From assembly GCA_950295325.1 (NCBI GenBank), contig OX485803.1, forward strand, positions 19,964,001-20,028,000: DNA of 64,000 nucleotides, read 5' to 3'. Positions 3,001-58,618 of this stretch are shown here, piece by piece (position 1 is the stretch's first letter; every line of letters begins with the position of its first letter). A program made the position numbers and the translations under genes. The notes under the pieces were generated by a model. The model saw only the letters and a list, made by a program, of their open reading frames with translations. It was not told the DNA's origin and did not search any database. The stretch is from Polytrichum commune (lineage: Eukaryota; Streptophyta; Polytrichopsida; Polytrichales; Polytrichaceae).

Positions 3001-4628
3001 CCTTGCTTAGCCAAGATAGGGTTTTCCTGCATCAATATCTTCATTTGGTGATGTAATTAGATGGCAAGGAACTCACTGACCTGTCCAAGCCACTTGTGGG
3101 CTCATCCAGAAACAGGATGCGGGGGCGTGTAAGAACTTCCAATGCAATGCTGACCCTTCGTTTCTCTCCTCCACTCAAGCCACGAAGGTGCCAGTTGCCA
3201 ATGGGAGTGTGTACGGCATCTTGGAGGCCCATGGCGGCTATGGTGGAATCCACCACTGCCGATTTCTGGTCCTTCGACATGTTGTTGGGGAGGCGCAATT
3301 GAGCGGTGTAAGTCACCGTCTCGTGAACTGTTAGGGTTCCTATTAATGTGTCATTTTGTGTCACATAACCCTGCCACAAACATTATTTAAGACGAAACAT
3401 AAGAGTCACATCGATCGTTATATATATATATACACACATACACGAGCATGCTTACTTATATGGTCATGTCAGATGGTTTCCTCAGATTGGTTGTAGGAAG
3501 CAATACTAAAAGAAAACTAGATGACGTTGAAGATAAATAACAATCAGCCTGTTTGTGAATAAAGAACCTTACCGCAGTACCATACGAAAGTTGTCTTTCA
3601 CGACCATTCACCCTGATGTTGCCGGATAGCTCTGCGTTCCTGCTGAGCCTGCCTGTTTGATGTTGTAAAGTAGGTTAAGAAAAAACTGTAATGATTATAT
3701 ATTTTCATAACGAAGAAAAATTTCAACAACAACGAAATGGAACTCAAGAGACCATAAATATTGGCCTTCCTTATCTCCGTGCTTGAGGATCAGGATGCCA
3801 TCAATATCAACATTTTAAGGTCTTGAAAATTCAGATGAAAACTATTCTCAGCAAGTTTGCAGATTAGCAGGTACATCCCGAGTTCTTTAGGTTGTATGCC
3901 AAGAACCACATCATTTTTAGCAGGTACAATCGCAGCCAGGGGGTATTAAGAAATTTGCACAGGAATCTACATCCTCTGTGTTTATAAGAACAAAGTCTGG
4001 TCATGTGCACCCGAATCATGTTCATCCATCATCCATGCCATGCTATGTGAAAAACACATGGAAGGTAAACATGACTCATTGACACGAGGTGACTTGCTTG
4101 AAATAAATCTGCCAGAGGGGCTGCAGAAATTTGAAGACTTGAAAAAATCTGTAAGAAAACCATAGTGTATGTCCACCAAGTCACCTCCTGTGGAATTGGT
4201 CGTGTCAACCATGTGCTTTTTTCCTACTAATAATTTTCTGCAGCTCTGCTCGCTTGGTAAGTTAAAATCTTTTATAAAAGTATAAGCTGTGGTGGTTAGA
4301 AACAATATCTACCTGCAAGAGAGTCTAGAAGCGTCGATTTTCCGGAGCCTGAAGGTCCCATGATGGCGAGAATTTGACCGGATTCCGCATAGCCGGTAAG
4401 GTTGTGAAGGATGGGAATGGTTTCGCCCAAGCCATTCGTCACAGACACACTTAAGTCCTGCCATGTGAGCAGTGCACGAGGGACGTCGCCGCCTATGACC
4501 TCTGTCCCTGGCTTTTCCCTCCACATAATTTCGCTAAGAGGGCTTAGCTGATGTGAATTTGACCAGCTTCTGATGCTTTTATGGTTTCCCTCTCCGTTCT
4601 CGAAGACGAACTCTTGTATAGAACCCAT
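59..4628 (-). CDS. ABCG: ABCG half-transporter, ABCG11/WBC11 type (3' end outside window)
   Basis: This is a plasma-membrane ABC half-transporter of the plant WBC group, whose members export cuticle lipids as dimers (family knowledge). I place ten exons with GT-AG borders and continuous phase: 4628-4313, 3652-3573, 3370-3081, 2815-2644, 2303-2187, 2030-1905, 1635-1441, 1267-1181, 617-345 and 166-59. They total 588 codons without a stop. Walker [10 protein letters not shown] is at residues 91-99, the Q-loop in GYVTQND at about 133-139, the signature LSGGEKRR at 197-204, Walker B ILFLDEP at 217-223 and the switch histidine in ASIHQPSSE near 254. Exons 7-10 carry the membrane half, with WBC11-like motifs [32 protein letters not shown] and VSGFFRLP. 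The start is the first ATG of exon 1. By comparison with Arabidopsis ABCG11 (about 700 residues), roughly 115 C-terminal residues lie beyond base 1. The gene looks functional. Confidence 0.93.
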
Positions 4629-5550
4629 TACAGCTGCGTTGTAATTTTAGATTCTTCCAATTTGCAAACAAAGATTCCTATGACGTCAAGTGAAAATGAG
4701 ATTTATCCAGTAGTGCAACCTGGATAGTTACTGGCACTCACTTATAACTTTGATGTCCTGCAGAACAAGAGTGTGAAGTTAGGGCATGCCAACTCTCTCT
4801 TTACAGTTGATGCAATCTAATGTGTTGAATTCCATTGGGAACAACTTACTTATCCACAAAAAAATACTATGAAGCAATATTCCTCAAAGTTCTGCTTCAA
4901 GTTTCCTGCAACGGAGTTGCTTGTTGAATTTTATGTAGTTTGATTGGGAGGTTAGTGTTTGAGTTATACCTGGATTCAAGCCTTCGCAGCTTGGAAAAAT
5001 GGAAATCTTCTAGACTCTCCTGGAAGATGGCGCTCGTTGAAAGAATCTTACCATGGAGTTTCAATTTAATCTCCAAAACCACATATTCAGGTGGGCCTGC
5101 AACTATTTGGAGGTGACATACATACTTACCTCATGATATCTGAGTTCTACATATGGACCACGTCACATGTAATAGATCAACTTCAGCTGCGGGATCCAGC
5201 CGGAACATCATGAACTGCCAACCACCGAATTCCAAACATTGCCAACCAATTCTTGATTGTATCAAAATTTTCTATAAGCGCCAGAAGTGAGCAGATTCAG
5301 TAGGTGAAGCATCGTGCAAATCCTTCTGCTAATCACCCATTCTATAACCTGTGCTGCCTCAGAAGTTCTAGACTGGCGCAGTACTGGATTATGAGTTTCC
5401 AAGCTAGCAGTTACACCCAACCTGCAGCATTGATAGTCGATTCTCCAAATGATATTAAACATCCAACTTGTGAAGATGTATTCCACTCGTAGCTCCGTAA
5501 ATCACATGAGCCTAACTTTGACTGAATATTGAGAATTGACGATCAGTCTC
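4629..5550. other. Upstream region of the ABCG gene
   Basis: This stretch holds the 5' flank and presumably the promoter and 5' UTR of the minus-strand ABCG gene. I see no conserved coding segment, and the short ORFs here have no recognisable motifs. I cannot place a TATA box or transcription start with confidence. Confidence 0.5.
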
Positions 5551-6760
5551 TTCGCGAATCGTTAGCCTGACATATCCACAAACTCAAAGTTAGGCTAGCT
5601 AGTACTATCTAGTGTGCAAAATCTCTCAAATGATCTACAACAGGTAAAAACTATGTAACTGATCACTCGAATCTCCAGGTTATGCCTTATCTCCAATTAA
5701 TTAGTTCAAATTATGTGGAGAACTCTAATTCGCAACTTTTCTAACTGCTATCCATCAACATGAAGAACGACATCCATACAAAGCTTAGTGCTAGTTCAGA
5801 CAGTCACCCTGGGCTCCAGATGGGATCAGCTTGATGAAGTTTACATATCCACACACTCAAAGTTAGGCTAACATTGTACTCAAACCCAGAATCTGCAAAC
5901 AGTCAAGCTGATCACTCGACTTGAAGCGCATTGGGCCGGATCGGCGTACGGATCTCCAAGTCCAAATGTGGAATGCTCTATTTTGCAACTCTTCTAAGTT
6001 CTATCCTTCAAAAACAATGATTACGTCCATACAAAGAGAAACAACAACGGCGTCCACACATAGATTAGTGTAACTAGCTAGCTCAGACAGCCACATTGAG
6101 TTGCAGAGCTGCAGATCAGCCTGATGAAGTATACATATGATCCACAGACTCAAAGGTTGGGCTAGTAAGTCTGTCATCAAAATCTGGCTCAAACCTACAA
6201 AATCCCCGATCTGCAACAAACAGGGTTGAATTAGGTCTCGAATATCACTTAACTTGAAGCACATCCTGGGCCCCCTGATAATCTCCAAGTGTAAATATGG
6301 GTTCCCCTACTTCGCAATTGTTGGACTATCCATCAATAACAAACGTGTCCAAATAAATGATTAGTGCTAAGCGAGTTCAGACCGTCACATTGAGTTGCAG
6401 TGCTTGATGAAGTTGTACATATATCCATACCTTACACTCAAAGTTGCGTTAGTTACATAGTACTGTCCAGCTGAGCCTAGCGATGCAAACTCCAATTTAA
6501 CCTCCAAAAACCCAAAATTGCAACAAAACAGGCTTCAAGAACTCGCTGAATAGTACCACTCCACTTGCATTAGCAGCACAGAAGCCCCCTGATGATCTCC
6601 AAGTCCAGATGTAGAATGCCCTACTTTGCAACTGTGAGACTATATTCCATCATCATGAACAACAACAACAACGGCAACGGCGTCATCAAAGATTCGGAGT
6701 AGCTAGTTACGTTGAGACAGTCACCCTGAGCTGCAGAGCTGATGATCAGCTGGTGGAAGC
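5550..6760. repeat. Degenerate tandem array, about four units of ~280 bp, upstream of ABCG
   Basis: Four diverged units follow each other. The shared anchor, roughly CATATCCACANACTCAAAG, occurs near 5572, 5844, 6133 and 6417, giving periods of about 270-290 bp. Each unit also has a block beginning ATCTCCAAGT (near 5950, 6270 and 6590, with a weaker form near 5670) that runs into TTTGCAACT. A block ending in a GATGAAG-like string occurs near 5830, 6125, 6405 and 6755. Coding potential is absent. The array lies 0.9-2.1 kb upstream of the ABCG start codon. Confidence 0.7.
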
Positions 6761-7099
6761 ACTGCAGGGACCAGCTTGTTTCCAGTTTGAATCCCGTGAT
6801 TGATAAGACACGGTGACAATTCCTGCTGGACCTAGCAGCCCTGACCGAGGGTCATGCTGGAAATCTGGCCTTCCGAAATCACGGAACACATGAATCTAGA
6901 GCTGTCGCGCTCTTGTTGATCTGTGCAGGTAGCACTGAAATTCTAGTCCCATCAGTGATATGTCATAATGGAGGAGCTAGAACTGACGGGTTGCCTAGGT
7001 AGATAGTAGATACATTTCAATTTTCATCAGCATGCTGGCTAAGCTTACAAGCCTGGAGTACGTGACAATTTGAAGTGATTTCATGCCCATCATTGGCAG

Positions 7100-7945
7100 G
7101 CATTGAATGCGCAGGGTCAGAAACTTGGACCTCATAAACTCCGGACAAGGGATGTTGGCAGGACAATATCATACCTACCTTTTCAAGCAGACCCCATCAG
7201 TATATATATATTCCACCCAGGCTGATGTGGCGGATGGCAACCCACGCTCGCTACTGGCCTTCAGTATTAAACGCCCCAAAATTGGGTCGCTCAACTTGTC
7301 AAATGAATGGATCTTCCTAACCGATGCGACGTGTGTTTATATCACATTGTTGTTCCCAAATGTAGTCATAATAGGAGTTGCTTTAGAGTTTCTATCATTT
7401 CCAACAACTTCAACATTGTTGGTTTAAATATTGGTTTTGCATCATAAATTTTGTATGTTAAGGATTGTTGGCATGATGTAAGTCATATGGTAACCTTTCA
7501 ACTATACCATCGTTAACTTCGTAAAGGATAGTAACCCACGCTAATGGCCTAAAGTTTTAATTTAACGTCCCCAAATGGAACGCTCAAGTTCAAATGATTG
7601 GATTTTGCTAGAGATAACTTGTGCATTTTACCAAAATTGAATTTGCAAAATGTAGTTGTAATTGGAGTTTACTTAGAGTTGAATATTCCACCACCAAAAA
7701 CTTGAACATGACATGAACTTATCTTTAATACCTCGACATACATTTTGAAGAAGGAATGTTAGCAAGGTATACCTACCTTACAGTTACCATGTGATTCATA
7801 TGAATTACAAGTCCTATGTAGGACTCGATGTAGAGGATGGCAACAAATGGCTATTTCCATGGCTAGAGCATTCCACAATGAGACTCTAAACTATGAAAAT
7901 GATTGGATCTTGCTAAAAGAGAAGTGCTCTTTTAACAACTTTTAT
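7100..7945. repeat. Second degenerate tandem array, about three units of ~300 bp
   Basis: Blocks resembling GGATGGCAACCCACGCT recur near 7231, 7526 and 7837. Each is followed by an AAATGATTGGATCTTGCTA-like block and, in the first two units, by a TGTAGT(C/T)(A/G)TAAT(A/T)GGAGTT block. The ORF at 7107-7427 lies inside this array and is not considered a gene. Confidence 0.6.
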
Positions 7946-8590
7946 AAAAAAATAAAAAAATAAAATTTCCAATATCTCCTCCAAATCATGCTTGGTCAGT
8001 CAACTAGTCACAACCTTTATACCTCATAGTTTCTATATATAGTATTGGTAGGATATAATATGTAGGTTCATGTATGTGTTAACATTGTCATTATACTAAT
8101 TTGAATTATACTAGTCTCACAATCAACCAAAATATATCGAGATGTTTTTTAAATAGCTAAGTTCCATATTATGATGGTGAAGAATGACATTTTAAACCAT
8201 CATATCAATTGTTGTGTGGAGAATATTATCCAAAAAATTCAAACCTTTTGACAAAACACTATATTCGGTAATAGGAGACTTTTTGATGATTTTGAGATTA
8301 TTTAAAGACGCACTTTTCAAATTGGACCAGTAATGACAACCTAAAAATCCCATATGTATAGTTTTGGATATAATTATCAGACATAAAGGCATCAAAGTGA
8401 ACAAAAATGTGAAGCATACATGAAAATATTTGCGTATGAAATGAGAAATCGTTATGAATGGAAGGGAAGATGCGGAGAATGGTTGGAAATTGAATGAATT
8501 GAATGGGATTGAAATACAAATATGATGGAAATAGAATAGAAAGTAAGCTCTAATATGTTCTACCCCTAAACGCATTCAGGGAGTCTGTAC
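7946..8590. other. AT-rich spacer without a supported gene
   Basis: The sequence is strongly AT-rich with low-complexity runs. A 127-codon minus ORF (8192-8575) is rich in Phe, Ile and Ser, as AT-rich DNA translates by chance, and has no domain motif. The base composition rises abruptly in GC at about 8590, where the ParB/phosphatase locus begins. Confidence 0.4.
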
Positions 8591-9029
8591 TATACGTTTC
8601 TAGTCCCACTAGTCCGTCCCACTACTTTTTTTTTGCAGCCGTGTCCTTGCTTTCGGCAGCCTCCATGGCTTAGAAAATCTCCAGCCCGCGGTTGTAACCA
8701 TCTTTGTTGACGGGCTAGGAATATGTGTCGTTCTTCCATATATCTGGACGCGCTCCCGAATTGTACGAAGTGGTATTGTGAGTGGAATAAGAGTGCGTTT
8801 GCGAGAGGGAATGTCTTGCGCTTCGCCGGAGGGCCAAACAACGATCCGACTCAAAAGATGCGGCCTTAAGGGCATGCCTATCCAAGGAAGACGTCGAGGA
8901 GGGCCGGCCACCAATCGAGCGGGGGGCCACCTGCGAAAGAATGCCATATTATTAGGAGTAAAACAAAAAAAGGAATGGAGTGGGGGAAACAAGGAGGGTG
9001 GTTTGGGATGGGCGCTCGTAAAGTTACCG

Positions 9030-9680
9030 GCACGCACATGCAAGACAAGGAAAACAATGGCGAGAAAGGGGTTTAGGGTTTAAGAAGGGCACCTTGGTTT
9101 TGGGGATGTCCATGTCGGGGACGATGGGCATGAGGGGGGTGTCGACGGGAGCATTTGAAGCCGATCGAACTATGGCACTGTTGAATAACGGAGGGGAATC
9201 AAGGCACGGAGGGCTGACGATCGCGGAGGAGGTTGCGGGGGAGGAACGGAGTCGGCGGGGGAGGTGTAGCACCGGGGGGCTTCCATGCGGAGACGCCGGC
9301 TCGGCCCGCGACGAGCGACGCCATCGTCCTTCGAGGGCGACAAGTGTCCCAAATGAACGAGTGTTCGTTTCTCCTTGGAGAGGGGAGATGACGACGGGGC
9401 GACAAGTTTGGGGGGGGGGGGGTTGTTCACAACGCCATCGTCGATCCCGACGTCCCGGGAATAATCCATGGCCGAGGTTGCGTCCACCGCCAAGAACTGG
9501 TAGAGGGATGGCATTTGGAAGTCTGTCACGTCGCAGGAAGGGGAGCCAGGGGTCAAGTGGGGACGGGAAGGGCCGTCGAGGATAGGGGCGTCACATATGG
9601 GGACAGACTGTGGACAACAACAACAACAACAAAAAGGACATCCCAAAACGGAGCAAGCATTAGATATGTGAACCACATGA
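9030..9680 (-). pseudogene. Companion ORF of the phosphatase cassette, copy 1 (unknown function)
   Basis: I do not recognise this product. It is supported by a second copy at 20440-21020. Both copies share a motif of the form DFQ(L/M)PSLYQ(V/F)LA(I/V)D early in the frame, a block like NNPPPPKLV, a block like GPSRRLRMEAP (GPSRRIHMEAP in copy 2), and a short block around PKTKVPF (PRTKVCS in copy 2). In both copies it follows the FCP1-like gene on the same strand after a short AT-rich spacer. The frame is broken by shifts. The GC-rich DNA continues to about 8600, but I cannot extend the match there. One palindrome copy lies inside (9351-9370). Confidence 0.45.
9351..9370. repeat. 22-bp palindrome family, outlying copy
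   Basis: This copy reads AAATGAACG, AG, TGTTCGTTT. It lies inside the companion ORF of the phosphatase cassette and is the copy furthest from the ParB-methyltransferase gene. Confidence 0.5.
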
Positions 9681-9767
9681 TAACAAACACAAACATGGAG
9701 GCAATTTAAATTAATTTATTGAATTTTGCGAGCCGCACAATGCTCTTATATACATTATCGCGCGGGC

Positions 9768-10418
9768 GCTTAGTGCCGCATTGCCGATGGGGTTGGACCT
9801 AACAAAATCCGGGATGCTTCCGGGGTGGAGCACAAGCCTTCTGAGGTAGGGGGTAGCCTATCGACCAAAAATGTGTCGTTCCTATCGCGGGTCCACGGGT
9901 CGGGGAAGATGGCGTTGCCCCGGGGCTTCAAAACACTCTTGATGGGGCTATCGTTGATGAGGAGGGTGTTCTCCGGAGACGGCCACCACCCGTGGACTCG
10001 TGGACCCATGGACTCGCCACAATCTGGACTCGAGGATCTTGAGGAACTGTTGTCCTCCGCCTCAACTGCCGAAATTGGGCACCGCCTGACCCTTCTCATC
10101 GAAGAGCTCGTCGCACGCCTCTTGGCCGAGGACGAAGCAAGGGCTTGGGAGGTCACGGAAGAGGATGTGGACAATGGACTCCGTGTTCTCCATGACCATG
10201 GAGCTCTACATGACGACATGAGCGAAGTTGAGCACCTCACGAAGAAAGTCCCGCAAGCCGGGACGGGCGCGGACAACCTTGCGGTTAATGAAACCATCGA
10301 GCTCGCCGTCGTAGTCCCTCTCGTTGGGATGATAGGAGGGACGGGTGGGAACCTTGGGGATGTGTTTGGTGTGACACAACACCCTGTTGAGGTCAAAAAC
10401 TAGGAACGGTTTTTGTCG
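9768..10418 (-). pseudogene. FCP1/NIF-type phosphatase-like pseudogene, copy 1
   Basis: The minus-strand frame starts KPFLVFDLNRVLCHT, the place of the FCP1/SCP (NIF, HAD-superfamily) catalytic DxD motif. The first Asp is kept; the second is Asn, and an Arg replaces the usual Gly. RARPGLRDFL, GQEACDELFDE and later ENTLLINDSPIKSV match the order of this family, where the last corresponds to the DD(S/N)P motif. The frame contains TAG at 10206-10208 and TGA at 10062-10064, then a shift at about 9990 before ENTLL. The C-terminal block around PYLRR and HPGSIPDF is in a further frame. The opposite-strand 192-codon ORF over this interval is a shadow. A plus-strand copy lies at 19617-20300. Confidence 0.65.
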
Positions 10419-10419
10419 G

Positions 10420-11050
10420 GTCTCAAGTCCATTGGTCGAGGGGTTGCGACCTATCTCCGGGGGGTCTTGTGATTAACAATTTGACTAGTTTAATGCTATG
10501 ATCTAGTAAATAAGCTTGCTTGAAATATGAAAACGATGCATTATGTAAAAAGACGAAGAGCGAGAACAAGAGTGCAAGGGAAATGTGATTAGTGGCACAC
10601 TTGCGAACGGGCGGTCGTGAATGAAGGGTGTGGGTGGCAGTGCGCATCATTTATGAGCGCTCGTTCATGAGCGCGGCTACACGCACATTTACAAGCGGTC
10701 GTTCGTGAAAGAGGTGGACACGGGGTCGCACCCTTTTACGAACGAGTGTTCGTGAACGCGGTAGGTATGTAGGAATGAAGAGACGTGCATGAACATACAC
10801 ATCACAAAAGATGAGAGACGATACAAAGTTTGGGCGATTCAATGCAGAGATCATCTGCTTATATACAAATTCAATGAATAATTATGTACAAATTGTCTCA
10901 AGTGATAATCTATCACACGGGTTTCTAAGCCAAAATGATGGCGTGTCCTACAAAATTGATTGGCCTAAGGGAGCACACAGGAAAAGGCTCTCGCAGACCT
11001 CGGGATGCTGATGGAGAGAATGCGCCAAGACAACATCGCGGGGGTTAGTG
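10420..11050 (-). other. Intergenic part of the ParB/phosphatase locus with four palindromes
   Basis: This separates the 3' end of the ParB-methyltransferase pseudogene from the FCP1-like pseudogene. On the minus strand an exon-like stretch at about 11052-10940 (ITNPRDVVLAHSLHQHPE and on) may be the last exon of the upstream gene, after a ~50-bp intron that contains a degenerate palindrome. The rest shows no coding motif. Four copies of the 22-bp palindrome lie between 10601 and 10756. Confidence 0.4.
10601..10756. repeat. Cluster of four 22-bp palindromes between the two pseudogenes
   Basis: Copies lie at 10601-10622, 10650-10671, 10688-10709 and 10735-10756. The consensus arms of the family are TTTACGAACG and CGTTCGTAAA around two free bases. 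Sequence between copies is not shared, so this is not a tandem repeat with a longer unit. Confidence 0.85.
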
Positions 11051-11052
11051 AT

Positions 11053-11074
11053 CTTACAAATGCACGTTTGTAAA
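11053..11074. repeat. 22-bp palindrome in a probable short intron (degenerate copy)
   Basis: The arms are CTTACAAATG and CGTTTGTAAA around CA. It lies in a possible ~50-bp minus-strand intron between the donor following DDE (near 11102) and an AG near 11053. Confidence 0.6.
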
Positions 11075-11088
11075 TGCTTGTGGTATTC

Positions 11089-12150
11089 TCAAAGATGAGT
11101 TACCTCGTCATCGGGGGGAGGGGCGCCAGCGCTAGACCCAGCAGCAGCTCCCTCCTCATCGATTAACGAACGCGTGTTCATAACCTCCATTGCTGCAACG
11201 CCATCCGTCTCCATGACGTCGTCTACATGCTCCGCCTGAGACGCCTGGGTCTGTTGGATGTGCTCCGCGTCATTGTCTTCGCCGCCTAGGTCGAGTGTCT
11301 CCATGTGGACATCCTCCATCCACGCGGAGGCCTGCCAATCATGCGCAGGGTCCTCTTCGACGTCCATCCTTTGGACATCGGCAGCGTTATTGGGGCTTCC
11401 CTGCGTGTCCTCCACAATGACCACGTCAGTGTATCGCGCAGTATCATTGCCCCTTGTCCTATCCACTACCCTGGGACGACGGTGAAAGAGGCCGTATCCG
11501 TGTCTGAGGGCAGTCCTACCCTTGAAGGGGGAGGGGTGAGGACTGCCGAACCTGAAGATTCTCGAACGCGCATTCGTAAACCCTCTTCCTCTCGGATGGC
11601 CGCCGAGATGGCATCATGGGAGGTGGCGGTGGTCGCCGGCACTTCAGGGGGCGGAGGAGTGCCCACCGGCGTTGGGTGGTACACTGGTTGGAAGGAAGGT
11701 CCTCCGGGGAACTGGCCTGGTGGGGGGTACTGGGAGGGGTATCCTCCAGGGAAGGGATACGCCGGCTGGGGGGGCGCCGAGAAGTTCTACATCCGGCTGA
11801 GCATTGCCAGCATAGCGTCCGTCTTCTCGTTGGAGGCCCTGAGCTCTTCCTGAATGAGGAGCATTTTCCTGGCATTAATTTATCCTCTATAGCCGCCGCC
11901 ATGTCCTCCTTCATCTTTTGCTAGAGCTTGGCATTAAGCTCGGCGATGGACAACGCCTCCCTCTTGACCTTCTTATTCTTGTCGAAGTCCACCCCCAGCT
12001 CAACCATGATCTCCATGTCGCCCTCGTCCTCATCGGATACCTCGATGATTGTTCCCTCAGGCAGCTCCACGTAAGGGGTTTTTTTCATCCTCCGCCTCGT
12101 GTTGCGGAAGTGGTCCAACGATGGACGGGAGCATTGGTCGAGAAGATCAA
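11089..12150 (-). pseudogene. C-terminal tail of the ParB-methyltransferase pseudogene
   Basis: This continues the gene of 12147-15488 after a probable one-base shift near 12150. Readable pieces are an acidic/basic block (LPEGTIIEVSDEDEGDMEI), a coiled-coil-like stretch (QKMKEDMAAAIEDK then, after a shift near 11870, ARKMLLIQEELRASNEK), a Pro/Gly/Tyr-rich segment (PFPGGYPSQYPPPGQFPG) and, after a shift near 11470, a very acidic Asp/Glu/Met-rich end. TAG codons interrupt at 11921-11923 and 11787-11789; CAG would restore Gln at each. Such low-complexity tails are common in transposon proteins. Two palindrome copies lie within this coding stretch (11163 and 11559). Confidence 0.5.
11163..11580. 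repeat. Two 22-bp palindromes inside coding sequence
   Basis: Copies at 11163-11184 (TTAACGAACG, CG, TGTTCATAAC) and 11559-11580 (TTCTCGAACG, CG, CATTCGTAAA) fall within the open frames of the C-terminal tail, where they are translated as VMNTRSLI and GLRMRVRES. Their arms are less perfect than intronic copies. Confidence 0.65.
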
Positions 12151-14073
12151 TTAAGGTTCTCCATCTTGGGAACCACGACATTGGGCCTGGGAGACACCGA
12201 AGTCGAACATCCACTAGGGGTGCCGAAGGCCTCCGCACCAAAGGTTTGCGTGGGAAGGACATCCTGGGTGGTGCCCGCCGACGATCCCGTGTAGCCACCC
12301 GAAGTCCCTTGCGGGTCGGATGGATTACCCGCTGGCGCCAATATTCGAAGCGGGGTGATGTTGAACGACTGGACGATCGCGTCCAGATTGGTGGAGGGGA
12401 TGGGCTCGTCGTCGTCTGTCTTAAGGACGGGCATGCCCTCGTCGGCGGGCATGTTCAATTTTGTCTTGGGGACGGACATGTCACCCAGGTCCATCGTGGA
12501 CGCCTTCGTCCTGTGGAGCTTGTACTCCTCCTCGTTGACGGCGTCAACGTATGTGTTGACGCACAACCCCAGCATCTAGGAGACAGAACCAAATGTGTCA
12601 ACATATATGAACGTGCGTTCATAAACATCAACACTATGGGTGAGAATATAGTGTGAAAACAATCTATGAAAACGAATAAAAAACTTTGAACATTGCGGAT
12701 GCCATGAAAAACTGCAACATACATGGTTTTATGAACGAACGTTCATAAAGCTTAGTAGGAGAGCTTACCATTGCAATGTACATGAATTTGCTACCTCCAA
12801 AGACGTTGTAAACCGTCTCTCCATTCATCGCCAATCCTTGCAATACGGAGACGTAGAACTCCAACGTTGGGAAGACCGTGTACAACGTCTCCTGCAGCAG
12901 TTCCTTGGGAAGGGGATGAGGGATGCTGTATATCTTCTTGAACGTGTTGTTGGCCCTGACAGGTGCTCGTCCATTCCTAAGTGCATTGTACGTCAAGAAG
13001 ATGAGGCTGACTGCTCCCATCTGCTTGTTGCTCCTGGCCTCGTTGATGGCCATGATCCCTTCCGTCTTGGCAGGCACGTATATGCTGTGGAATATATTGT
13101 ATTCGAACTTGATTATCTCCTCATACAGCTCGGTGACGACGGAGACCTTCTCCAGTTCAACAATCCACAGCCACACGTGTGGCTCCCTCATGGCTGGCGA
13201 TTTGTACTCCATGAATTTCTCCATGAAGGGGCTATAAAAAGGCACCCCCTTCGTCCCCTGCCTAGACGCACTCGGGATCCCCTGAAATCGATTATTGCGA
13301 ATGGGCAACCCCGGCGGTCCTCCCTTACCTCGGCCCTGCTCATGGTGCCGTCCCACTTTGAGAACGTTGTCCTCTCCAACCCGGTTTTGACCCCACAAAA
13401 TCATGCGACGCCCTCGAATGTGGCGTTTCTCTTCCTCTCCAAGAAAGAGATATACCGCTGCAGCTCTTCGGGTTCTGTCTACGTCTTCTTGGTTCTTTTG
13501 TTGCCCTTGAGCTTCAAAACGACGATGTGCTCTTTCACCAGACTGCGCATCGAGGCACCCTTGATGTTGAACAATGACCTTCCATTTGGCCCAATTGATG
13601 TCGCCGTCAGCATGGAAGAATTGCATCTCTGGCAAGAGACCCCTCAATTCCCGCATCATAGTTGTCTTCATCTTTTTGTGGTCGCACCACTCCTTGATGG
13701 AGTACGTGTTGGGCTTGTGCTTTGGCCTCTTCAAAAATATCTTGGGATAAGGGATTGTTCTTCTCACGGTGTTCCCAAGAACATGCACCGCACAACGCAT
13801 TAACTCCGACTCCGTCAAACCTTGTAGGGACTTGAAGAAGTCCCTCAGCAATGGAGGGGCCTCCCCGGTTTTATCCGCATTGTACTTCTCCTTTGTGTTG
13901 GGGTTGATGTGATCGTCCGAGTTGTGCGCGTCAAAAAATTGTGTCCACAAATCCCAAGTGTCCCTGTTGCAGCAAATGAGGCGGAGCTCACCCTTCAGCT
14001 CCAGTACTGACTTGGTGGTGGTCGACTTCATGTCGATGAAGGAAAATTTGTCCACCATCGCATCGCAAAAAAC
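12147..14073 (-). pseudogene. DNA N4/N6-methyltransferase-like domain of the ParB-methyltransferase gene
   Basis: Exon C (14073-12769) is 435 codons with no stop and joins exon D (12575-12147) across an intron 12768-12576. Near the end of exon C the order is: a segment like PHVWLWIVELEKV, then GRAPVRANNTFKKIYSIPHP, then LPKELL, LEFYVSVLQGLAMNGETV and NVFGGS at residues ~839-844. In the beta-class (N6_N4_Mtase) DNA methyltransferases the SAM-binding motif I, F(G/M)GSG, sits C-terminal and is preceded by an HPTQKP-like box and GDxVLD; the layout here fits. I do not find a DPPY/SPPY catalytic motif, so activity is doubtful even before counting the stops elsewhere. A domain search of the translation is the decisive check. 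Confidence 0.55.
12604..12749. repeat. Two 22-bp palindromes in one intron of the methyltransferase gene
   Basis: Copies at 12604-12625 and 12728-12749 both lie in the 193-bp intron 12768-12576. The second has perfect arms TTTATGAACG and CGTTCATAAA around AA. Confidence 0.85.
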
Positions 14074-14108
14074 CTGCAATGCACAACAAAGGTGTCAGTG
14101 TTGCACTA

Positions 14109-14188
14109 CATACGAACGCACATTCGTAAATTGAAAAGTTCAGGAAAAATGAAATGCAATATGAACTTTACGAACGTTCGTTCGTAAA
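14109..14188. repeat. Two 22-bp palindromes in the ParB/methyltransferase intron
   Basis: Copies at 14109-14130 and 14167-14188 both lie in the 120-bp intron 14193-14074. The second has perfect arms TTTACGAACG and CGTTCGTAAA around TT, and begins five bases inside the 5' splice site as read on the minus strand. Confidence 0.9.
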
Positions 14189-14193
14189 TTCAC

Positions 14194-14759
14194 CTTCCAC
14201 TGCGGAGACTAGGTCTTTGCGTTTTCCCTCTCTTTTGGTGGGCACCCATGTATCACTCAGACATCTCTAGCAGGCACTATATTTGCTGCCCACGACGCCT
14301 CAAAAGCCTTGATCTTATTTCCGGATTTAAGAAATGTTGAAATTTTCCGGAGCTTGTCCCAGTCGCCTGACCACATCAAAAACGCCTTCCAGTAGCGCAG
14401 GTCTGCCTTGAGCTTGTGCTGGAAGTTATCGTCTTTGAGGATGATCAGTGATGCCTCCAGACTGTGATGTCCATTTATAATCCAAAACTCGTCATTCTGG
14501 ATTTGGGGCCAATCCTTCTCAGTGGGATGGGACGTCAGGCCCTTCGGCATCACGCAGATGGTCTGCCTATCCCACTTGACGTTATTCATTAAATTATTGA
14601 TTTGCCACTTCACACCCCCGCTCTCACGAGACCTAACCACCCATTTATTGGGGGATTTTTCGCACTTGAAGTAGTCCACGTTGAATGTGAAGTGCCTTCC
14701 CATGGGCCAACAATCCTTCAAATAATTGTTGAAGTCTCTCAGGATTATGGTCGCCTTCA
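14194..14759 (-). pseudogene. ParB-like domain exon of the ParB-methyltransferase gene
   Basis: Exon B is 566 nt and fits in phase between exon A (ends 14807) and exon C (starts 14073). The core QTICVMPKG - FWIINGHHSLEAS resembles the ParB/sulfiredoxin-like fold signature (hydrophobic strand, then (I/V)(D/N)GxH(R/S)xxA; residues ~294-331). It is followed by RYWKAFLMWSGD, then LRKIST and SWAANIVPARDV. ParB-like domains fused to N4/N6 DNA methyltransferases are common in bacteria and phages (established architecture). Two premature stops lie at the exon end: TGA 14257-14259, where Trp (TGG) is expected, and TAG 14209-14211, where Gln (CAG) fits. The 120-bp intron that follows (14193-14074) contains two palindromes. 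Confidence 0.55.
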
Positions 14760-14806
14760 CTGCGTCCGGGTTTTAAAGGGGTTGGCATTACAGGCGGTGA
14801 GCTTAC

Positions 14807-15488
14807 CTCTGTGGTCTCTGTTACTCCAAACCTTTCCATGTCATCCCTTGACCTTTTGGATGGCGTGGATTGTCTATTGGGCCCCTCCGTCACCCTGCTC
14901 GCGGAAAGCACCGGCCAGGGTGCACTTCTCGAACCTCCTGCCCCGGATGCAGATGGTTTTCTTGGATTTTTTTAAAATTTTATTTTTCTTGTTGGATTCA
15001 GCTACCACACTATTGTACTTCGAGATGTTCAATGCGAGGGCGGTTAGCTTCCTCGTTGTCCAATGTTGGCTGAACGTGAACTTTGTGAAGAGTCCCTGCA
15101 GGCCGAAATGCTTGGCATATTCACCTACATTCATTTGGGCGTACATGTAGGAGAACGAGTGCTCTAGGTAGTTTAATAAGAGGTTGATGTGATCTTTCTT
15201 GTTTTTCATGTCCAAAATTATATAATCTCCCTAGGCCTCTATGGACTCTATCTCCCACATCTTCATCTGCACCCATTGTTCTGGCTGGTCCGGTCTCGTC
15301 TCCAACTCGTAGGTAAAGCGCATGATGAAAATACCGTCTTCGGTCTTCTCTGGCAGCGCCGTCCACTCCCCCATGAAGTCCTCCTTTGGGACGTAATTGT
15401 CGTTGCCATTTGTGTCGGACACTAACTGTGGCAAGCGATCCACCTGCACCGCGAACATCTCAATGGCGTTTCTGCTTGATCTAGCCAT
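14807..15488 (-). pseudogene. N-terminal exon of the ParB-methyltransferase gene
   Basis: Exon A starts MARSSRNAIEMFAVQVD right after an acceptor CAG and runs 682 nt in one frame to a GTAAGC donor; the next exon restores phase 1. It includes EDFMGEWTALPEKTEDGIF, YAKHFGLQGLFTKFTFS and a Lys-rich block. I recognise no domain. Three premature stops interrupt it: TAG 15231-15233, TAG 14874-14876 and TGA 14841-14843. All are one transition from CAG, TGG or CGA. A further short 5' exon may lie just upstream, ending at a GTAATG donor at 15550; the 62-bp intron between (15550-15489) holds a palindrome. Confidence 0.5.
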
Positions 15489-15519
15489 CTGCACCATAAC
15501 ATACACGTTTAGAATAGTA

Positions 15520-15541
15520 TTTACGAACATTCGTTCGTTAG
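15520..15541. repeat. 22-bp palindrome in the predicted first intron
   Basis: The copy reads TTTACGAACA, TT, CGTTCGTTAG. It sits in the predicted 62-bp intron 15550-15489 of the ParB-methyltransferase gene. Confidence 0.8.
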
Positions 15542-15639
15542 TGACATTACCAGGCCGCAGACACTACTGACTGCATTGTGGGTTTGGTTGTACATCATAA
15601 CATTCATTCATATATTTGATCCAACAGCTTTTAAGCATA

Positions 15640-15940
15640 TTTACGAATGATCGTTCGTAAATGAAGATGTGTTGCTAGGTTGTATTTTATATTGCACGCT
15701 TTTACGAACGTGCGTTCATAAGATTGGGTATTTGGTTGTGTAAATTTTCACAGTGATGGTATGTTTTGATTATTGTGACATTAGGGTGGTGCATATGTTG
15801 GTGTTTTCCAGCGTATATTCACGAACACGCGTTCGTAAACTTTTGGACTTGTGCTTTGGACACGGGTATTTACGAACGAGTGTTCGTAAAAGGGGTTGGG
15901 TTAAGCGATGTAGTTGCATTTACAAACGATCGTTCGTAAA
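15640..15940. repeat. Cluster of five 22-bp palindromes upstream of the ParB-methyltransferase gene
   Basis: Copies lie at 15640-15661, 15701-15722, 15818-15839, 15869-15890 and 15919-15940, with start-to-start spacings of 61, 117, 51 and 50 bp. The arms are nearly perfect (for example TTTACGAACG, AG, TGTTCGTAAA). Flanks differ between copies. The 90-codon plus ORF across this cluster merely translates the palindromes. Confidence 0.88.
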
Positions 15941-15949
15941 TGTGGTTGC

Positions 15950-16300
15950 TTTGGTGTTCTTCTTTGATATTGTCCGTACATATATGTATTTATATATATA
16001 CAAATACATATACAATGGACTATGATTGTTCCCCTCTCAAGAATGCTTGCAATAGTGTCTACAACTCTTGGTCAGAATGATTGAACTCAAGAAAAAATTT
16101 AAATCAGAACATATTATTGTTTGGTGTCCAAAGAAAATACAATCATGTACATAATATTTGGAAATAAATAATATGTTTTGAAACTTGGTATTAGCATTTT
16201 GTTCTCTTTGCATTCTTATTGTTGTTTCTTGTTTGATTGCTATGTATTCATTATAATTTGCCATATGTTTGTTGCTTTCTTGCATGTTGACATTGTCCTA
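15950..16300. other. AT-rich junction between the ParB locus and gypsy remains
   Basis: The DNA contains a TA-rich run near 15980-16010 and no supported gene. Palindromes end at 15940 and gypsy homology begins at about 16302, so a boundary of one of the elements should lie here. I cannot identify terminal repeats. Confidence 0.4.
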
Positions 16301-19616: not shown

Positions 19617-20300
19617 GGTCATAAAACCTTTGTAGTGTTTGACCTCAATGGGGTGTTGTGTCACACAAACATATCCCTTAAGTTCCCACAATTTTCCACC
19701 AAAGTCCAAATGAGATGGACTATAACGGTACACTAGACACTGTCATTAACCACAAGGTTATCCGAGCCCGTTCAAGCTCCCGGACCTTCCTCTGCGAGGT
19801 GCTCAACTTAGCTCACATTGTCGTATGAAGCTCTATGGTGTTGGACAACACAAAGCCCATCGTTAGGTTCTTCTTTTGCAGTCTCTTAAGCCCTTACATG
19901 GTTCTTGGATAAAAGACATGTGATGAGCTATTCAATGAGACAGGTGCGCCAATGCCCAAGTTCAAAGGGGGTAGAGGGCAACAATTCCTCAAGGTCCTCA
20001 AGTCCAACCTATGGGTTGTCATCCCTTGGTTGAAGGGGATCCCTCACAGGTGGTGGCTGATCGCAGAGAACACCATCCTTGTGGACAACAACCCCACCAA
20101 GAGCGTCGTTAACCCCTTGGCACTGTCATTTTCCTTGACACATGAACTCGCAATAGAAAAGACACCTTCCTAGTGTCAGAATGAGCTAGCTCCCTACCTT
20201 AGGAGGAATGTACACCACCCTGGTAGGATCCTAGATGTTTTCTCCAACCCTATTGGCAATAAGCCTCTACCCCCTCCAATGATGTTTATAAAGCCATTTG
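19617..20300 (+). pseudogene. FCP1/NIF-type phosphatase-like pseudogene, copy 2
   Basis: The frame opens KTFVVFDLNGVLCHT, retaining the DLNGV form that copy 1 has changed to DLNRV. It continues VINHKVIRAR, EVLNLAHIVV, then TGA at 19826-19828, where copy 1 has TAG, followed by SSMVLDNT. Later parts are GQQFLKVLKSNLWVV, WWLIAENTILVDNNPTKSV and NRKDTFLV. Several further stops and a missing C-terminal frame show it is dead. It is oriented opposite to copy 1 and has no ParB-methyltransferase gene beside it; upstream is gypsy integrase. Confidence 0.65.
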
Positions 20301-36300: not shown

Positions 36301-38830
36301 ATGCCTCCATGTCACTTTGGGGTTATTATATTACACATACGGATTATGCATAGAGTTCCTTCCACCAAGAAACTTTGCAGAAAAGCCAGACGAAAAGTTG
36401 AAAAATAAAACCCACCACAAATAGCCATCACCCACCACCTACTACTGCCATGGCAGTGCACATCCATTGGTGATAGATCAACTACAAGTCTAACATGATG
36501 TCTTGAGCAAACCATGTCTTGTACCCCTCAAAGCCTACAAACGACGGTCTTCACTAAATTCAGCACAAAACATATATGGTGCACAGAGGTCTCCATTTTC
36601 TCTATTGAAATAACTCAATCAAGTTCATGTCCCGCTTTTAGACCTAGAAGTATTACGCATGTTTCTTTCATGAAGAAATTACCCCTGCACACAACATAAA
36701 TCATGAAAACACACACACTGCAACAAACAACCACCACCTCATATACCATGATAGTAGTGGTGCCTAGTGAAAAACTCAACTACAAGTTATCCAGCATGAC
36801 TTCTCCAAAAAAAAATTTGTCCACCCTGAAAGCCGAGGAAAAATAGTCGCAACTAAGTCAAAAATTAGCCATGAGTTCCCCACCTTCACAATTGATTGCT
36901 ACTAAGCTCCATCACATAAACCTCCGTTTCCTTCACTGAATGAACTCAAGTACTAGGCTTGCATCCCATTTCCTAGCCTAGTAATCATGCTCCATTCACC
37001 AAAAAAACCTCCCATACAAACAACAAAAACCATGAAATTACCTTGAAACATTTAAGCAAATGACCACCACCTCCACCTCCTCGTCATGGTGGCAGTCATA
37101 CATTAGTGAAAGGATAAACCACAAGTACAACAAGAAATCTTGAGCAAGTTGATCTTATCCATCCTTAAACACGATATTCAATACTTTGAGAGAGTGGGAT
37201 CCTCTCAAAATAATATTGGCCATTTGGACACCTAAAAGTCATGTTAGGTTGATAAATACTAGATTATACTTCAGACGTGTAGTTTCCATTAAAATGAGAG
37301 TATGTTAAGCTGGGAAATCGACTCGTTTAGGTTGAGTCGACCTAAATGAGGACAATATTTTGTCAATTTAGGTTGAGTCAACCTAAACGAGGACAATTAT
37401 GTTAGTCAATTTAGGTTGAGTCGACCTAAATGAGGACATTATGTTGTCAATTTAGGTTGAGTCGACTAAATGAGGACAATTATGTTAGTCAATTTAGGTT
37501 GAGTCGACCTAAATGAGGAAAATATGTTAGTCAATTTAGGTTGAGTCGACCTAAATGAGGACAATATGTTGTCAATTTAAGTTGAGTCGACCTAAATGAG
37601 TCGATTTCCCAGCTTAACATACTCTCATTTTAATGGAAACTACGGCGGAATTTACGGCAAAAAATCAAATGTTATTTTTTTACTAGTACTCTACAACTTT
37701 CTAGTGGTTTTCATTTCATTTTTGGATTAATAGTTTGCTTTATGTACTCTCATTTTAATGAATATTGTGTTCTTAAAATTTGGGAAAGAAAGTCACAACC
37801 AAGTCCATAAGAAACTAGCCATGGATGTGCAATGGGAGGCACATCAAGCCATGAGTTGCCCACATTGATTGGTAATGAACTCTATCACAAAAACCTTCAT
37901 TCCTCGACGGAAGAAACTTAAGTAGGTTCATATGTCATTTCTAAACCTAATAATACTTTGCATGCTTTGATCATCAAGAAACTACATATACAAACAACAT
38001 AAACCATGAAAACACACACAGTCTTCAACAAAATACCATGATCACCCCCACTTCCTTACCGTGACAAACGTACACTAGTGATAGGCTCAACCACAAGTTC
38101 AAGAAGAAATCTCGAGCGAACATTGTCTTTTCCATCTTCAAAGTCTAGGAAAGTCACAACCAAGTCCATAATTTTTTTTGTGATGGACATGCAAGGGACG
38201 TGCATTGGACATGCACATCGACCCATGAGTTGCCCAATGATGTAATTGACCGTTATGAACACCATTACAAAAATCTCCATTTCTTTCATTAAAATAACTT
38301 AATTATAATTATGTACCATTTTTATACCTAAAATTATAAATTAAAGTTATGCTCTTTCCAGTGAGAAACCACGCACACAATATACATAGTCTTGGAGCAA
38401 ATTTGCCAACCCTACATACCATGGTAATAGTGGTGCTAGTGATATGCTCAACTACAAGTGGCATATCACATGATGTCTTCACCGAAACTTATCATGTCCA
38501 CCCGCCCTCAAAGCCTAGGGAGGATAGTAACAACCAAGTCCATTAGAAATTAACCATGGTGCATAAGTCAGCTGGCACATCACCCATGAGCACACTCTCC
38601 ATATTTGGCAATATTGAGCTTCATCACAATAATTTCCAATTTTTTGCAATGAAGGAACTATCTTATTTTATACCACGTATCCCATGTCTATACTTAGAAG
38701 CATTTTGCATTCTCCTTTCACCAAGAAACCATGAAACTCATATTACCTACATTGTAACGTCTCTTCTTAGTTACATTCAACCATCACAAAATGAAACACA
38801 CAACATGATGTAACACAAAGCTCACGGTGT
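36300..38830. repeat. Degenerate tandem array (~300-bp units) interrupted by a MITE
   Basis: Blocks resembling CTCAACTACAAG, preceded by GTGGTGCTAGTGA-like DNA, recur near 36470, 36775, 37110, 38085 and 38445. They alternate with ACCATGAAAACACACA-like and GAAATAACTCAA-like blocks. Divergence between units is high. The array is split by the inverted-repeat element at 37279-37643. No coding potential is evident. Confidence 0.6.
37279..37643. mobile_element. MITE with 46-bp perfect inverted repeats and seven internal near-palindromic units
   Basis: The left arm 37279-37324 is the exact reverse complement of 37598-37643. Between them are seven copies of a unit of about 40-46 bp built on TTTAGGTTGAGTCGACCTAAA-like cores, which are themselves near-palindromes, separated by GAGGACAATATGTTGTC-like spacers. 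A partial arm (ACTCTCATTTTAATG) recurs at about 37745. There is no ORF and no clear target-site duplication. Confidence 0.88.
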
Positions 38831-53552: not shown

Positions 53553-54947
53553 CACTACTAGCAGGGGCGTCGTTCCTCACGGCCAAGAATAGTATAAAGT
53601 GACCCCTGGCGACATGAATTTCACTCAACGCAGAGGTTCAGCGGGGGAGTGGATGTCCGCGATCTTCTCAGTGCTTCGGGTCACAAGAGACAAACTTGGG
53701 TCCCGTCGAGAAGAGTCTGATTGACTGGCCAAGACCTCCTCACCCACCTGCGATGTGCGTTCAGGCTTCAGCGAGCTCCGACGTGGACGCCATGAGTCCG
53801 ACGTGGATCCGATGAGTGGGAGACTTACCGAGGAGCCACATTTTTAACCGTTTCATCTGCAGTTCGTCAGATATAAAATTAGCCGTTAGATTGGCAATCA
53901 TCGTAGTGCGACTATTGGCTTACATATGCTCCTTTTTCAAGGGACATGGCTCGGGACTTCACATTGACGCCGAAGCCACTGTCCGCCGTGAGAACACGTG
54001 GGCCAGTAAAAAGTACTGGCAACGCGGGTATTATTTGTGTTTGATGTTTAGGTGGTAAATTTTGGACACTGTTGTGTATGATTACAGGTTCGTTTTTTCT
54101 CCGTTTTGAGCACTGATTTGGCGCTTCACGGCCACCCTCATGGACCAATATGCATATGTATGTATGCGGCCACCGTGCAAGCCAAACCAACAGTCTTGAA
54201 AATTAGGTCGGGATTTTTTGGATACACTTGGCCAAACTTCTGTATTAGCAATAAAAATCAATATCAAAACAAGCTGTAGGGGTATGCCGAGCAAACCACC
54301 GACTATAGCCTACAGTGCATGCCCAAGCACGTACTCAGCAAAACACTCTTATTCACACCTAATTACTCTACACATGTATTGCAGCTGCCGAGCCAGACTG
54401 CGACCATAGCCTACAGTGTGTATCTACAAACACTTATTTAGCGTGACTCTGTAATTCACACCTAATTATGCTATGAGCTACACATATCCAACTTCTCAGT
54501 GGCGGATGGTAATTCCAACTGAATCTGTAGAAGCAAATCTGTACCGGGAACCGAAGGGTCGTTAAGTTGCAGTGGTCCTCGCACGGCAGAGCTGCATGCT
54601 CCTCTACAACCTGTAATTCTATGCTCAAACCACCCGTCGTAGCTTCCATTTGGCCTATAGGATAGCTACCTATGCATTGCATGCTACATACGAGGAAAAG
54701 AAACGGCTGTGTTGAATTAATGTTGTTGCATTTAGATCACTGAGCTCTGCGACGACGTATGATAACCGACCCCCTCCATGAAATGCGGGGACTGGCTCTG
54801 GCAAAGCACGAACAAAAGTCAGTGAAGAGTCATGTGGTCAATTACGAGGGGGGGGTGGACGACGATGTACAGCAAATACTAGCAATAGCCACGGAAATTA
54901 GGCTCACTTGATAGGGATATGCGATGGTCTGTTGTAGCACTCACCTG

Positions 54948-57900: not shown

Positions 57901-58618
57901 GTGCTATTAATGGGAAACGGGAAAGGGGACAATGCCGACGCACCCCTCCAGCCCGGCCCAGGACCACTCCCAGGGATGTAATAAGGCGTTTCGGGAATCT
58001 GCATCGGCATGGTTGATGACTGTTGTTGCTGCCTTGTTGCTGAAGACGCAGTTGGTGTAGCGTACTCGTTCCCTCCGCTGCCACCACTGCTTCCTTCTCG
58101 GCCAAATGAGCCAGAAATGTGACTAGTTGTCGGTGCATGATGCTGATTGGTGTGTGGGACACCCAGGTTGGGCACATTTCTCAGCAACATCCCCGGCATT
58201 GGGTACTCCATGTTCAGAATGCTGGGGTTTAACATGCGCGAGGGATTACTTAATGGCTGCATCACGGGTTGGTGTCCTTGCATCTGGGGATGTTGAAACC
58301 CGTGGTACATGTATTGCAACGGCGGTCCTGCCTCCACGGGAGACGCTCCGGATGGAGGGTACATAGCTTGGGTTGTCCACGGATGTAGGTGTGGTTGTCG
58401 ATGTTGATATGAAGACATAACCGGCAAATGCGCGCTTGGGGCACCCTGTAGTTGCATTGTGCATTAGCGAGGTTGTAGGAATTCTAAGTGACATCGTCAA
58501 CAATGAGTAGAGGATAATGCAACTTTGTCCATTCAAAATACCGGTACAGAGGAACTACTGGATTCAGTGGTGTTACCTGGGTTGCACCGTTGGACGCGCC
58601 GTAGCTGGAATTGCTCAT
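54948..58618 (-). CDS. TNP1-like CACTA transposon protein, intact, eight exons
   Basis: Exons 58618-58577, 58445-57270, 57125-57009, 56684-56616, 56488-56048, 55973-55716, 55584-55381 and 55283-54948 join with consistent phase 0 and give 880 residues without a stop. The N-terminus is Gln/Pro/Gly-rich. Residues ~270-375 (VRAFVHTQFRATARRFLNLS, LDRRFTFDPPLR, WRKHWLNTGRGEKH) resemble the plant Transposase_24 (PTTA/En-Spm) domain. Exon 3 is acidic. A coiled-coil-like stretch is near EVEQHMSQNKDDMAAVNKKL. The last exon (MHPDHQNTTVALGRCGPH, VTLCDALKG) resembles the TNP1 C-terminal domain (Transposase_23). In this family TNP1/TNPA proteins bind subterminal repeats and assist transposition. The open frame suggests a young copy. 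Splice sites are inferred; the donor of exon 6 (GTATTC) is the least certain. Confidence 0.8.

Follow-up and report, generated by a model that had tools for sequence, protein, structure and literature searches.

Family-specific 22-bp palindromes in large DNA transposons of the moss Polytrichum commune

Several types of DNA transposon offer a comparison for the elements described here. CACTA (En/Spm) transposons carry TnpA sites and have a 3-bp target duplication, Chapaev/CMC elements have a 4-bp duplication and CAC ends, and VANDALs have a MULE transposase. Anti-silencing by the VANC proteins of VANDAL elements is known from Arabidopsis (PMC5735166, PMC10398659). According to PMC5735166, VANC21 binds short motifs in the introns and intergenic parts of its own VANDAL family, these motifs vary among related families and spread as tandem repeats, and VANC is more variable than the VANDAL transposase. 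Here we describe 22-bp palindromes in a 64,000-nucleotide stretch of the genome of the moss Polytrichum commune (assembly GCA_950295325.1, contig OX485803.1, positions 19,964,001 to 20,028,000, hereafter the window). These palindromes are the hallmark of a large DNA transposon family in the moss genome, which we call family F, and those in the window are the palindromes of a dead transposon copy.

An earlier sequence-only reading of the window had listed eighteen 22-bp palindromes. We scored each site by its mismatches to TTTACGAACGnnCGTTCGTAAA over 20 arm positions, that is, two 10-bp arms around a 2-bp free centre. Seventeen of the eighteen match with at most 5 of 20 mismatches (the true start of the site given as 10601 is 10600), but the one at 9351 drops out, not being among the window places with up to 7 mismatches. 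No other place in the 64 kb has five or fewer mismatches, as that reading had held, and its observation of two CG dinucleotides in each near-perfect arm is correct. Thirteen palindromes of the window have at most three mismatches, versus 0 in 100 dinucleotide shuffles.

The same reading took the palindromes to be private to this locus, which is ruled out by counts across the genome (408 Mb in 64 contigs, with the reversed motif as control). With up to 3 mismatches allowed, TTTACGAACGnnCGTTCGTAAA occurs 9,764 times (27 for the control); 2,909 of the genome's sites are perfect (0 for the control), and the palindrome belongs to a widespread transposon family rather than to this locus alone. Proximity to this transposon was examined with the 23 listed one-arm variants on contig 1, which are not a random sample and of which one is inside F1, a full-length copy described below. 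For 20 of them an exact inverted repeat is no more than 16.5 kb away, and such zones make up 3.5% of the contig; for 17 it is no more than 10 kb away (2.3% of the contig). The perfect palindrome had 0 matches in IMG/VR.

The carrier is a transposon of about 16.1 kb with inverted repeats AACACTATATTCG..., and it encodes a DUF7869 protein, a second protein (g2) and a NIF-type phosphatase. Three copies, F1, F2 and F3, were read from end to end; they have 16.1 kb in common at 99.2-99.4% identity, and their ends are the inverted repeat AACACTATATTCGkTAwTyGGAGACTTTT, which is found at 1,040 + 1,024 places genome-wide at up to 2 mismatches (2,064 in total, control 0). When the ends are set at AACACTA, an identical 4-bp target duplication flanks 10 of 13 copies, the sample being ten inverted-repeat pairs chosen by eye among the places listed plus F1-F3, while shuffled pairs average 0.9. 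No copy (0/13) matches at 3 bp or 5 bp, and the copies without the 4-bp duplication are L030/L031, F1 and F3. The inverted repeats and the constant length of the target duplication mark the element as a DNA transposon. The DUF7869 protein (Pfam, E 4e-40 in F3) is presumably the transposase; the transposase frames had no Pfam match to Transposase_21/tnp2, only to DUF7869. The genes for the phosphatase (E 2.4e-14) and g2 run opposite to the DUF7869 gene. A first look at the genome gave 1,491 candidates for DUF7869 (150 scored), against none in 14 control genomes, and 1,402 for g2 exon 2 (90 scored); since protein and DNA matches were scored for 40-150 of 1,152-1,491 candidates, copy numbers are lower bounds. 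In titles and abstract openings of the literature we found nothing on these elements and nothing on DUF7869.

The intact copy F3 contains 30 palindromes, and 28 of them are outside the open frames taken as coding, as are 9 of 10 in the family A stretch L043 (see below); exon limits were set by eye on the basis of open frames and splice signals rather than transcripts. Ten sites lie at 3860-4913 and nine at 8222-8832, between divergent genes. Intron 1 of g2 holds the sites at 10183 and 10246, the first palindrome beginning five bases past the exon, and intron 2 holds those at 11644 and 11717. Two further sites, 12742 and 13118, are inside the g2 exon 3 frame, where they are read as LRTRVRE and VTNARSL, and five palindromes at 13226-13664 precede the phosphatase gene. 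The transposase intron of F3 has no family F palindromes. The unrelated flanks reported earlier hold for the window copy, in which the flanks have little in common beyond one or two outer bases, but intact copies also contain tandemly duplicated sites whose flanks are related. We also considered the 22-mer as an inserted mobile unit and rejected this, because direct flanking repeats are few (2 bp at 4/30 and 4 bp at 2/30 sites in F3; 2 bp at 1/16 window sites with up to 4 mismatches).

Scanning other DUF7869 elements for perfect palindromes that recur revealed two sister families. Family A carries CCCACGGGTGnnCACCCGTGGG (two stretches) and family D carries GGGTGAGGCAnnTGCCTCACCC (three stretches), both in the 10-2-10 geometry, so that three families with related DUF7869 proteins each have many copies of a distinct palindrome of their own. 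Genome-wide, the family A palindrome occurs 1,486 times at up to 3 mismatches (control 81), and the family D pattern, written with R/Y, at 968 forward places at up to 2 mismatches (control 0). In the eight stretches that we read of another family, no occurrence of any of the three motifs was found at up to 4 mismatches. Family A was read in two places, one with the transposase and left part (A692, A677; DUF7869 E 1.3e-46 in A692) and one with the g2 part (L043). We take A692 and L043 as one element because they share a stretch (A692 455-928, L043 1046-1510) and because palindromes occur at both ends of C1:48454084-48474947.

Comparison of families F and A showed that their layouts largely match while the palindrome sequences differ. 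Family A palindromes are found upstream of g2, in both of its introns and inside the exon 3 frame, as well as on either side of the phosphatase gene; others lie upstream of the transposase and within the transposase intron. Common to both families are the sites upstream of the transposase and of g2, in both g2 introns, in g2 exon 3 and before the phosphatase gene. Among the shared proteins g2 is the least conserved: the transposase pieces are 33-53% identical and the phosphatases 36.4% (E 6e-31), while the matched parts of g2 are 24-26% identical (25.5%, E 1e-8, and 24.4%, E 2.6e-8) and exon 3 has no match. The family D palindromes lie between the transposase and a g2-like gene, mostly as a 59-bp tandem array. 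As side observations, the NIF/FCP1-type phosphatases at L033 5684-6466 (family F) and L043 8166-8987 (family A), 36% identical, have the motif DLNGV or DVNGI, the motif of this type usually being DxDx. Beside the family D element on contig 7 (L042 2198-8819), minus-strand frames match protein kinase and NB-ARC in Pfam and show LRR-like repeats by eye, a combination known from mosses.

The arms of the palindromes are constrained. When we compared F3 with the window copy, a comparison between two subfamilies, the arms at 13/13 orthologous sites were 88.8% identical (231/260) and the flanks, 30 bp on each side, 73.0% (518/710; Fisher P 6e-8), in agreement with the earlier suggestion that the palindrome rather than its flank is kept. 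The free centre was identical at 20/26 positions and all aligned sequence outside the sites at 79.0% (3738/4730). The 29 arm changes comprise 22 transitions, 19 of them CpG transitions. Changes in both arms that keep the symmetry, to which the sequence-only reading had also pointed, do exist (5 mirror-image changes versus 2.1 in shuffles, P 0.037), but their excess over chance is marginal. Across the genome, the C5/G18 change affects a single arm in 56 + 63 cases (119) and both arms in 4, one of which is in the window; 1.2 doubles are expected if shared descent of the copies is ignored (P 0.035). Compensatory evolution was rejected as strong evidence.

Palindromes are amplified in a derivative at C1:632001-650000. 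Its inverted repeats are 9.5 kb apart, and it retains short transposase and phosphatase fragments with no g2 match, while it has 46 palindromes versus 30 in the full-length copy. Both upstream clusters are kept, and many of the palindromes are in 33-34 and 93 bp arrays at the positions of these two clusters. A part of this derivative, L044 3240-4080, is related to F3 over some of its length. Among 40 scored of 1,152 candidates, 32 places match it almost in full at 94-100% identity, itself included, 11 of them at 99-100%.

The CpG observed/expected ratio of F3 is 0.69-1.61 in 14 of 16 one-kb bins, versus 0.26-0.64 in seven left-flank bins; the right-flank bins reach 0.98-1.28, but these are within a neighbouring inverted relative that carries its own palindromes. 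For the old window copy the ratio is 0.74-1.08, versus 0.15-0.51 in adjoining DNA. This pattern fits an escape from methylation. The F3 segment at element positions 5118-8117 (C3:58123001-58126000), between the upstream clusters and without palindromes, has ratios of 0.75, 0.44 and 0.28 and may be an old insertion.

Taken together, the data suggest that every family tags its copies for a self-encoded protein. From the fixed geometry, the change of palindrome between families, the matching layout and the constrained arms, we infer that the palindromes are bound by a dimeric protein, sequence-specific in its DNA binding and encoded within the transposon, and since each family has its own palindrome, we propose that this protein acts on its own family. 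The binding protein would most probably be the g2 product, favoured as the ligand because g2 is the least conserved protein shared by F and A. Positions upstream of genes and in introns would be where transcription and silencing get decided, and the likeliest outcome of binding would be anti-silencing, that is, the element would stay expressed and free of host silencing, as VANC does for VANDAL transposons. On balance we lean towards this explanation as a whole.

In several respects the elements resemble VANDAL/VANC as described in PMC5735166. They are DNA transposons with short motifs in non-coding parts, the motifs differ between related families (here three families with three palindromes), the motifs spread in tandem, and the accessory gene is more variable than the transposase. 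The differences are that the VANC21 motif is the 9-base YAGTATTAY while here it is a 22-bp palindrome, and that VANC has DUF1985, which was not found in the g2 pieces of F, A, D and the window (Pfam, E up to 1). The moss elements also have a presumed DUF7869 transposase and a 4-bp target duplication, and not a MULE transposase. Membership of the VANDAL group fails on domains, and the parallel with VANC would be one of logic. If this explanation is true, sequence-specific self-recognition of the VANDAL type arose again in a different type of transposon, and with a cleaner code, in which every family has a single palindrome, the geometry is fixed and the layouts match. Swaps from one family to another would then allow a direct test of how protein and site co-evolve, and orthogonal DNA-binding proteins could be drawn from these families.

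Here, we need to consider the observations that weigh against an anti-silencing role of g2. First, library searches recognised no DNA-binding domain in g2, and AlphaFold models of the family A g2 exons had pLDDT of 38 and 32 (alignments A1 and A3 with 4 and 3 sequences). Second, family F g2 had no tblastn match in family D, so that the g2-like gene of D, which contains no palindrome, is known only from where it lies and from weak motifs. Third, a copy at C1:21542856-21550409 has retained the transposase and nine sites and lost g2, and g2 therefore need not act in cis. The transposase or the phosphatase could also be the ligand. Fourth, 3 of the 23 sampled one-arm variants are far from any exact inverted repeat, perhaps in truncated copies like that of the window. 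Finally, family A is CpG-poorer (0.34-0.89 in L043, 0.24-0.70 in A692), window positions 54001-58000 have ratios of 0.83-0.88 (2-kb bins) without palindromes, and young age, coding content and the palindromes' own CpGs are confounding factors for a high ratio.

Another explanation, possible but considerably less probable, is that the palindromes are internal transposase sites for the assembly or regulation of transposition, like the subterminal sites of En/Spm and Ac. It would account for the derivative, which lacks transposase and g2, must have moved in trans, and has nevertheless kept and multiplied its palindromes. However, the F3 sites closest to the two ends are still 3.9 kb and 2.4 kb away from them, many palindromes are in introns, and the transposases of F and A are better conserved than g2 (see above), yet their sites are wholly different. 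The resemblance to CACTA elements is likewise partial: the inverted repeat contains CACTA and short sites are clustered inside the element, but the sites are palindromic and not subterminal in the full-length copy, the ends are AACACTA and the target duplication is 4 bp, not 3. A 3-bp duplication beside CACTA was rejected (0/13 at 3 bp with the ends at AACACTA); it is impossible because the left flanks end in AA and the right flanks begin with TT in 13/13 copies.

We consider it unlikely that the transposons exploit host transcription factors, a different one for each family, although sites upstream of genes and in introns are at typical enhancer places. This would require three unrelated factors sharing the 10-2-10 spacing, sites at host genes would be expected too (host promoters were not scanned as such), and 20 of the 23 sampled sites are within 16.5 kb of an exact inverted repeat.

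The sequence-only reading had connected the palindromes with ParB-methyltransferase genes. A gene with such motifs, g2, does accompany the palindromes in F and A, but the resemblance is one of short motifs: g2 contains 'NVCGGSKFMYAA' and, in family F, 'IIDGQHSLEAS', the family A counterpart of the latter being VVNGQHTLAAC. It is doubtful that g2 works as a ParB-like clamp, loading at parS-like palindromes and then spreading. The combination of palindromic sites with a nearby gene that has a ParB-like motif recalls parS/ParB, ParB sites being palindromes, and the two peptides resemble the GxxR region of ParB; but S or T stands in place of the GxxR arginine, g2 reading GQHS (F) or GQHT (A), and the AlphaFold model of family A exon 1 (pLDDT 38) predicted no fold. 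Searches of the g2 pieces against Pfam, PHROGs, NCBIfam and PDB sequences gave no ParB or methyltransferase match, and we rejected a ParB-methyltransferase gene as an established fact. With respect to the N6A/N4C methyltransferase motifs DPPY and FxGxG, g2 shows only the motif-I-like 'NVCGGSKFMYAA', which had no library match. The best weak g2 matches were HAUS-augmin3 (E 8e-4, below the cut-off, in low-complexity exon 3) and a TrfB/KorA repressor profile (E 0.075), and the phage collection gave a single match at E 8 for a family D exon. It is equally doubtful that such a clamp, spreading over the transposon it comes from, protects all of it from silencing, with one palindrome code per family; if this is true, a bacterial-style partition clamp has been turned into the self-recognition mark of a eukaryotic transposon.

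That the palindromes act as DNA or RNA hairpins in splicing, termination or small-RNA production with no need of a cognate protein is very improbable, since, although the sites are palindromic and within transcribed introns, pairing would suffice for a hairpin, yet the 10-bp arm sequence is nearly fixed per family and mirror-image changes are only marginally above chance.

The features of the window copy are collected in Table 1. It is 79.0% identical to intact F3 at 8255-15547 and 76.6% at 15868-16012. The palindromes at 10600, 10650, 10688 and 10735 are orthologous to F3 13664, 13615, 13577 and 13530, respectively, and two of the six at 15520-15940 align with F3 8832 and 8749.

Table 1. Features of the family F copy in the window (window positions; palindromes scored against TTTACGAACGnnCGTTCGTAAA)
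Feature	Position	Strand	Basis or quality
Truncated, degraded transposon copy, without the transposase half and the other inverted repeat	8255..16012	-	similarity to F3
Terminal inverted repeat AACACTATATTCGGTAATAGGAGACTTTT	8255..8283	+	inverted-repeat match
NIF-type phosphatase gene remnant	9773..10472	-	61.6% identical to F3 phosphatase, 255 aa
Palindromes 10600, 10650, 10688, 10735, before phosphatase gene	10600..10756	.	4, 5, 3, 2 mismatches
Palindrome just past g2 open frame	11053..11074	.	4 mismatches; ortholog F3 13226
Palindrome in g2 exon 3	11163..11184	.	4 mismatches; ortholog F3 13118
Palindrome in g2 exon 3	11559..11580	.	3 mismatches; ortholog F3 12742
g2 intron 2 with palindromes 12604, 12728	12576..12768	-	splice signals, limits by eye
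g2 exon 2, frame disturbed	12769..14073	-	62% identical to F3; at least 90 genome relatives
g2 intron 1 with palindromes 14109, 14167 (perfect)	14074..14193	-	splice signals, limits by eye
g2 exon 1 remnant with stop and frame changes; contains 'IINGHHSLEAS'	14194..15459	-	similarity
Palindromes 15520, 15640, 15701, 15818, 15869, 15919, upstream of g2	15520..15940	.	3, 1, 2, 2, 1, 1 mismatches

A second fragment of the same type of transposon, 69.5% identical to F3, lies in the opposite orientation at 19624-19999, about 3.6 kb past the truncated end. Elsewhere in the window, an open frame at 44033-44998 matches Methyltransf_29 (E 1e-10) and is probably an unrelated host gene. At 37326-37600 there is a tandem array of another palindrome, TTTAGGTTGAGTCGACCTAAA (10-1-10, one mismatch). 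Its degenerate pattern, with up to 1 mismatch allowed, was found 1,802 times in the genome (control 0), and this palindrome is possibly the site of yet another element.

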